A stretch of DNA of 64,000 nt, taken from positions 124,001 to 188,000 of the forward strand of contig PXQU01000001.1 of assembly GCA_003021785.1 (NCBI GenBank), in the 5' to 3' direction. Positions 47,883 to 48,641 of this stretch are shown here, piece by piece; the stretch's first letter is position 1, and each line of letters starts with the position of its first letter. The notes below the pieces were generated by a model. That model was not told the DNA's origin and made no database searches. It was given only the letters and a program-made list of their open reading frames with translations. The stretch comes from Halobacteriales archaeon QH_7_65_31. GTDB taxonomy: Archaea > Halobacteriota > Halobacteria > Halobacteriales > Haloarculaceae. The translations under genes and the position numbers were made by a program.

Positions 47883-48641
47883 ATGCCGTCCCAGACTGCA
47901 CTCCTCGCATCGATTCGCCGCTGGCTCGTCGGCGGCGTGCTCGCGCTCGGTGTCATCATCTTCCAGCTGTCGTCGATTCAGAGCGGCGTCGCTGTCGGTC
48001 AGGGCGGTCTTCCCGATTTGACATCCTCCCTGCCCTGAAGGGCGAGGATTCCAGCGCGGGACAGCGGGCCGGTCCCGCGTCCCCGCTGGCAACGTCTCGC
48101 TTGCCGGATGGGATCCGGCGAGGCGATACCGGGTTCGTGCGCGATCCGTCGGCCCCGCGAGGGGTGTGGCGTGTTCGGCGTCCATTCGGACGCGGTATCC
48201 GCTTGCACCGTGCATCCCGTTCGTCTCGGAGAGACGGCGGGGATGCCCCCGGTCGCCCCTTTCGGAGCGTCCGGGCACGGGCCGTGCCATCGGCCTGCCT
48301 GCCCTTCAGGCCACGGTGGGCAGGCACAAGCGAGCGAGGGTCGCGTTTTGTCTGCCGTGTCACCACGGCCTCGGAGACGCCCTCTCGGGAACGGTATGGT
48401 GGCCTTCGTCGTCCGGGCGGACCCCAATCCAACCGCCAGTTTTTGCTCGTTGTGCTTACCCTGATATACGCTGTCAGGAGACTTAATGCCGGCGGTTGTG
48501 GCGGCGTTGTCGGATTCATCCCCGCCGTGAACGGCGGGGCTTTCTCCTCGAACTTCCGTAATGCGACTCGTCGGGTTTGGTATCGTCGCTGCGGCCCTGT
48601 TCGTTCTGGGAAATACATCCTTCGACACGAGCGGGGAGTAG
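47883..48641 (+). pseudogene. small membrane-protein gene split by a 540-bp MITE
   Basis: The 5' part (MPSQTALLASIRRWLVGGVL... to GQGGLPD, 45 codons, ending at 48017) holds one transmembrane helix. The 3' part (VMRLVGFGIVAAALFVLGNT ... SGE, from 48558 to the TAG at 48639) holds a second. Deleting 48018-48557 joins them in the same frame to give a 72-aa two-helix protein with a normal acidic end. As it stands, translation from 47883 runs into the element and stops at 48036-48038 (TGA). The C-terminal part could start internally at the ATG at 48561. Function of the intact protein is unknown. Confidence 0.75.
48018..48557 (-). mobile_element. non-autonomous IS200/IS605 (IS608-like) element, 540 bp
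   Basis: Read on the minus strand, the left end follows a TTAC target (48561-48558) and has AAAG (48543-48540) directly 5' of a perfect 8-bp hairpin CCCCGCCG-TTCA-CGGCGGGG. The right end has GAAT (48051-48048) 5' of an imperfect hairpin around GCCC-TTCA-GGGC and finishes in TCAA (48021-48018). TTAC/AAAG and TCAA/GAAT are the cleavage and guide tetranucleotides known for IS608-type TnpA. No target duplication is present, as expected. No TnpA or TnpB coding sequence was recognised inside, so it would need a transposase in trans. The right end also resembles the region where TnpB-associated guide RNAs end. Confidence 0.8.

Follow-up and report, generated by a model that had tools for sequence, protein, structure and literature searches.

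We examined a 64,000-nt window of a haloarchaeal genome (positions 124001 to 188000 of contig C1 of the source genome, G000; the assembly holds 2.25 Mb in 16 contigs and is 90.6% complete). In this window, a 540-bp mobile element splits a small membrane-protein gene and carries a conserved, covarying RNA akin to the omega RNA of one tnpB lineage; the element has no tnpB gene of its own. The element is a palindrome-associated transposable element (PATE), and we think it probable that it serves as a TnpB-less mobile omega-RNA gene that TnpA would move in trans and that TnpB may help retain, likewise in trans.

Insertion, ends and copies of the element

The interrupted gene lies on the plus strand. 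Its 5' part (47883 to 48017) comprises 45 codons, and its 3' part (48558 to 48641) comprises 27 codons followed by TAG. Joined, the two encode a protein of 72 amino acids, with which a Pfam search retrieved nothing. The first-pass annotation of this DNA predicted that removal of the element would regenerate this gene and proposed a search for an uninterrupted homologue with an empty site. We found intact 71-amino-acid orthologues in G003 (about 74 to 75% identity) and G001 (68%), with E values of about 1e-25, adjoining the same ileS-side genes as the split gene. Both parts of the gene align with orthologues, the 5' part without gaps (L037 and L038). Because the whole orthologues run gap-free over the predicted junction between GGLPD and VMRLVGF, the insertion is a clean one. 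The prediction thus held: the empty site in G001 and G003 is exact, and the frame of the orthologues agrees with the junction.

The insertion is missing from both relatives that carry the gene, and the gene had no match in the three other genus members searched, so that it is probably dispensable. Given both observations, the insertion appears to have disrupted a dispensable gene in this lineage only. The length of 540 bp had been given weight as a multiple of 3. This property is irrelevant, since precise excision of any insertion made without target duplication regenerates the target; restoration of the frame is therefore to be expected and is not evidence of regulation.

IS608 (ISHp608) of Helicobacter pylori has a TTAC target, the guide tetranucleotides AAAG and GAAT, and a TCAA right end. 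Its TnpA cuts after TTAC guided by AAAG and at TCAA guided by GAAT, and the target is not duplicated. The element (48018 to 48557, minus strand) has all four signals, as the annotation had recognized. At the left end (48557), the target TTAC (48561 to 48558) lies outside the element and is followed by AAAG (48543 to 48540) and the hairpin CCCCGCCGTTCACGGCGGGG (48539 to 48520), a block (48520 to 48543) conserved in other copies. The right-end block (48018 to 48051) consists of GAAT (48051 to 48048), the hairpin CCTCGCCCTTCAGGGCAGGGAGG (48047 to 48025) and the terminal TCAA (48021 to 48018), and also occurs in tnpB-bearing elements of the source genome. Unlike IS608, the element contains neither tnpA nor tnpB, and its host belongs to another domain. 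It has near-terminal palindromes without terminal inverted repeats, a fixed target oligonucleotide without target duplication (shown by the empty-site orthologues), and no transposase gene in the list of its open reading frames. The element is therefore a PATE, a kind already known from the IS200/IS605 superfamily; with no Y1 TnpA gene inside, it is not an autonomous IS608-like insertion sequence.

Copies at unrelated loci in other species and genera have identical start and end bases (e.g., G004:C15, 93-95%). The IS608-type end chemistry and the lack of target duplication proposed in the annotation are supported. Full copies were found in G004, G105, G122 (two full and one in pieces), G061, G117, G056 and G107, the last with an internal deletion. 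Of the nine TCAA-type copies, seven follow TTAC and two follow TGAC. The source genome holds at least two further copies with the same boundaries, present as three pieces that end contigs C3, C5 and C6. These contigs break inside the copies; the assembly may therefore hide further copies and possibly a TnpA gene. As to mobility, two insertions in the genus are missing at the matching loci of relatives. In G000, G001, G002 and G003, the corresponding locus lacks one of the G004 copies, a statement made at the level of the locus because the spacer has diverged.

The annotation further suggested that the element could act as a reversible switch if the genome holds a TnpA elsewhere, and called for a search of the genome for a Y1-family tnpA. 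The search recovered a trace of such a gene but no intact one: in the 90.6%-complete assembly we detected seven tnpB genes and a single broken Y1 TnpA trace with two in-frame stops. Most of the element-bearing genomes also have TnpA genes. In G115, a TnpA gene lies directly behind a left end that is 87% identical to that of the element, TTAC included; it encodes an HVH motif, and its frame is open, partial and runs off the contig. We take this TnpA as our leading candidate for the type of mobilizer. The TnpA elements of two sister species (L082 and L083) were considered and rejected, as their ends are of another type. A reversible switch, in which excision and reinsertion of the element turn the membrane-protein gene on and off, would gain from scarless excision, which would restore the 72-amino-acid gene, and from the existence in the family of an autonomous TnpA with the element's left-end type. 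Against it stand the lack of an intact TnpA in the source assembly, the gene's missing matches in the three genus members, an insertion that relatives do not share, and the lack of any sign of excision in the population. Although a relative has a partial, open-frame TnpA behind the same left end, the switch draws no support beyond the end chemistry that all such elements have in common, and we regard it as very improbable.

A conserved structured RNA in the element

The first-pass annotation was right about the ends of the element and missed its main content. The 3' part of the element, about 280 nt (48018 to 48298, minus strand), falls within an RNA family that numbers at least 22 copies and shows strong covariation. 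RNAalifold, applied to 22 aligned 3' parts, returned 46 pairs, 16 of which have both sides changed in some copy. In this structure, 97.3% of cells are paired, compared to 34 to 47% with slid partners, and all 500 shuffles fell below the covariation score of the alignment. Because the structure was derived from the same alignment on which it was scored, we also trained structures on nine TCAT copies or nine TCAA copies and tested each on the other group. Applied to the TCAA group, the TCAT-trained structure paired 81% of cells (31 to 43% slid), and the TCAA-trained structure paired 67% in the TCAT group (37 to 55% slid). The alignment contains 85 G-U cells versus 7 A-C cells, a strand polarity that would be expected of an RNA read from the left end to the right end. 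As in TnpB omega RNAs, the secondary structure is conserved and ends at the right-end hairpin. Some of the conservation might be explained by TnpA recognizing DNA hairpins.

At its 5' side, the RNA has a stem formed by GCCTGCCC and GGGCAGGC (48297 to 48325, minus strand), which, read by eye, differs in other copies and still pairs. A TATA-like box, ATTAAG (48482 to 48487, minus strand), is a candidate promoter for the RNA. Most TCAA-type copies have an A/T-rich box at the same place, about 70 bases in, whereas G056 and G117 show no clear box; in TCAT-type copies it reads TTTAGG or TTTATG. Past the right end, the first 16 nt after TCAA (48002 to 48017, minus strand) are a putative guide, assigned by position according to the known organization of TnpB omega RNAs (PMC10097598).

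These observations bear on the reading that the element is a passive, degenerate PATE, in which the interior is a functionless, decaying remnant of the 3' end of a tnpB gene and TnpA moves the element by its ends alone. Core-deletion derivatives of IS605-type elements are indeed known, including HqIRS71, which retains a C-terminal remnant of tnpB (PMC3119063). However, decay would not be expected to leave compensatory changes throughout the interior, invariant blocks and a G-U polarity in 22 copies, or to keep the box ahead of the RNA in many TCAA-type copies. We therefore disfavor passive decay and consider it improbable.

An Rfam scan of the element produced no match that reached its threshold. 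Only HgcC (24.9 bits; gathering score, 50) and sot0042 (14.2 of 88 bits) were obtained; neither sot2652 nor HEARO was among the matches listed. We rejected HgcC as the identity of the element, since known tnpB right ends give it similar scores and its match thus shows only that a right end is present. HgcC (RF00062) gives weak, repeated matches of 24 to 31 bits at haloarchaeal tnpB right ends, seen at 48006 to 48108 of the window (minus strand) and at the right ends of L045, L046 and L047. This hints that HgcC may itself be an IS200/IS605 right-end RNA.

Kinship with tnpB-linked RNAs and a candidate nuclease

A 29-mer is common to the element and to many tnpB genes, in which it encodes PMARPV near the C terminus of TnpB. 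Among these is a tnpB gene of the source genome, inside an element whose ends are likewise of the TTAC and TCAA type. From the block onward, the element tracks the 3' end of tnpB in order: GCGCACGAACC, GTTGCC, a stem, GGAATCC and the right-end hairpin. The P1 and P2 stems, the 3' stem and the right-end junction are common to the element RNA and the tnpB-linked RNAs, and P2 covaries in the latter (GTGCG/CGCAC and GTGTA/TACAC). RNAalifold on the tnpB scaffolds alone gave few pairs. Hence model R1, for which we used tnpB-linked scaffolds alone and omitted the right-end hairpin, is mostly a sequence profile. It matched sister copies of the element with E values of 5e-8 to 1.5e-4. In the window copy, the full-length match fell in the orthologous place (48046 to 48142, minus strand) and was weak (11 bits; E, 0.6), so that the link of this copy to tnpB-linked RNA runs via its sisters, above all G117 and G004:C10. 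By these sequence comparisons, and through the sister copies, the element RNA is homologous to the omega RNA that one tnpB lineage produces from its 3' end. A tnpB gene of this lineage is not found nearby on the same strand at 29 of the 30 sites with the RNA pattern; at the remaining site, there is only a distant, nonoverlapping tnpB match (28%).

The candidate partner in the source genome is a tnpB-only element with an intact frame and TTAC and TCAA ends, located outside the window (G000:C1:34930-36267). The usual RuvC glutamate motif is VEDL. In this gene and its relatives the motif reads VGDI, with G for the usual E, which makes the nuclease activity of the putative partner uncertain; the activity may be altered, or another position may supply the glutamate.

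The RNA could also be functional and not be a cutting guide for TnpB, e.g., by binding another protein or by acting with a nuclease-dead TnpB as a regulator. The altered motif would suit this alternative, as would the P2 domain, which is far larger in the element than in tnpB-linked RNAs. The features shared with those RNAs argue against it. So does co-occurrence: of the 23 family genomes in which the element matched strongly, about 20 also contain the tnpB lineage, versus 94 of 148 overall, a comparison made among the matches listed and confounded by the load of insertion sequences. On balance, a role other than guiding TnpB seems unlikely, though somewhat less so than passive decay.

A proposed life cycle and relatives of the element

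Under the favored reading, that of a mobile omega-RNA gene without tnpB, the PATE would derive from a TnpB-bearing element that lost most of tnpB and kept both ends and the RNA-coding 3' end. This homogeneous PATE entered the minus strand just 3' of TTAC and so split the membrane-protein gene. A transcript of about 400 nt would start from the TATA-like box and continue past the right end into the flanking DNA, joining an omega-RNA-like scaffold to a guide copied from the insertion site. Movement would depend on TnpA in trans. Were the RNA loaded by a TnpB of the matching lineage, the nuclease would cleave the sites that the element has left (TTAC plus guide) and so help the element to be retained or recopied. 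Tentatively, and with less confidence than we give to this account of the single element, such elements may be widespread haloarchaeal satellites of TnpB: promoter-bearing omega-RNA genes without tnpA or tnpB that would rely on borrowed TnpA for movement and on borrowed TnpB for cutting the sites they leave, and that would acquire a new guide from the flank at each insertion.

PATEs are numerous in haloarchaea and have so far been regarded as leftovers. If the guide RNA works, the family would be a nuclease-dependent parasite of TnpB, which would explain the persistence of elements without tnpB. It would also provide a natural omega RNA free of overlap with coding sequence, with an enlarged scaffold and a guide set at each insertion.

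HEARO RNAs and the omega RNAs of IscB are ornate mobile RNAs of IS200/IS605 elements, some of them reported to lack an open reading frame. The element is similar in having such an RNA without a nuclease gene; it differs in its kinship to TnpB instead of IscB, and HEARO is bacterial (the sequences were compared by the Rfam scan only). Haloarchaeal tnpB genes are known to express omega RNAs (PMC12558985). Like these sotRNAs (Rfam RF02656 and RF02657; PMC12558985), the element RNA lies at the right end, includes the right-end hairpin and is followed by a guide position. Unlike them, it belongs to another lineage (14 bits only with sot0042), is larger and does not overlap a tnpB gene. The existence of PATEs and their descent from IS605-type elements were reported previously (PMC3119063). 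The closest known elements are the PATEs of Haloquadratum and the IS605-type elements of Natronomonas described there, above all HqIRS71. They share near-terminal palindromes, a target oligonucleotide, the absence of a transposase gene and of target duplication, and small mobile repeats inserted in palindromes. No RNA was proposed for them, whereas the family described here has a covarying RNA and spans several haloarchaeal families. The literature searched, which reached few subscription papers, yielded no mobile omega-RNA element without tnpB. What is new is thus the interior, with its covarying omega-RNA-like RNA; the PATE itself was already known.

The 30 sites with the RNA pattern lie in Haloferax, Halobellus, Halegenticoccus, Halobiforma, Natronomonas and Haloglomus and in metagenome-assembled genomes; the viral contigs searched contained no exact match. 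Cultured carriers of full copies include Natronomonas aquatica, Halobellus clavatus, Halobiforma haloterrestris and Halegenticoccus tardaugens. In Halobellus rufus (L147), two copies of the pattern (2472 and 2942) lie on the same strand only 470 bases apart. The loop of the RNA's 5' stem takes up small mobile-repeat inserts in other copies, namely, those of G004 (L019) and G056 (L057). The inserts consist of two hairpins with variable yet pairing stems, joined by GTGATGA and ending in CTCGAACCAC. They are also listed at L095, L075 and L048, and two exact-pattern copies occur in the source genome (C9:51730-51764, which is L048, and C16:171645-171677). They resemble the SMR-A repeats of Haloquadratum, which target PATE palindromes.
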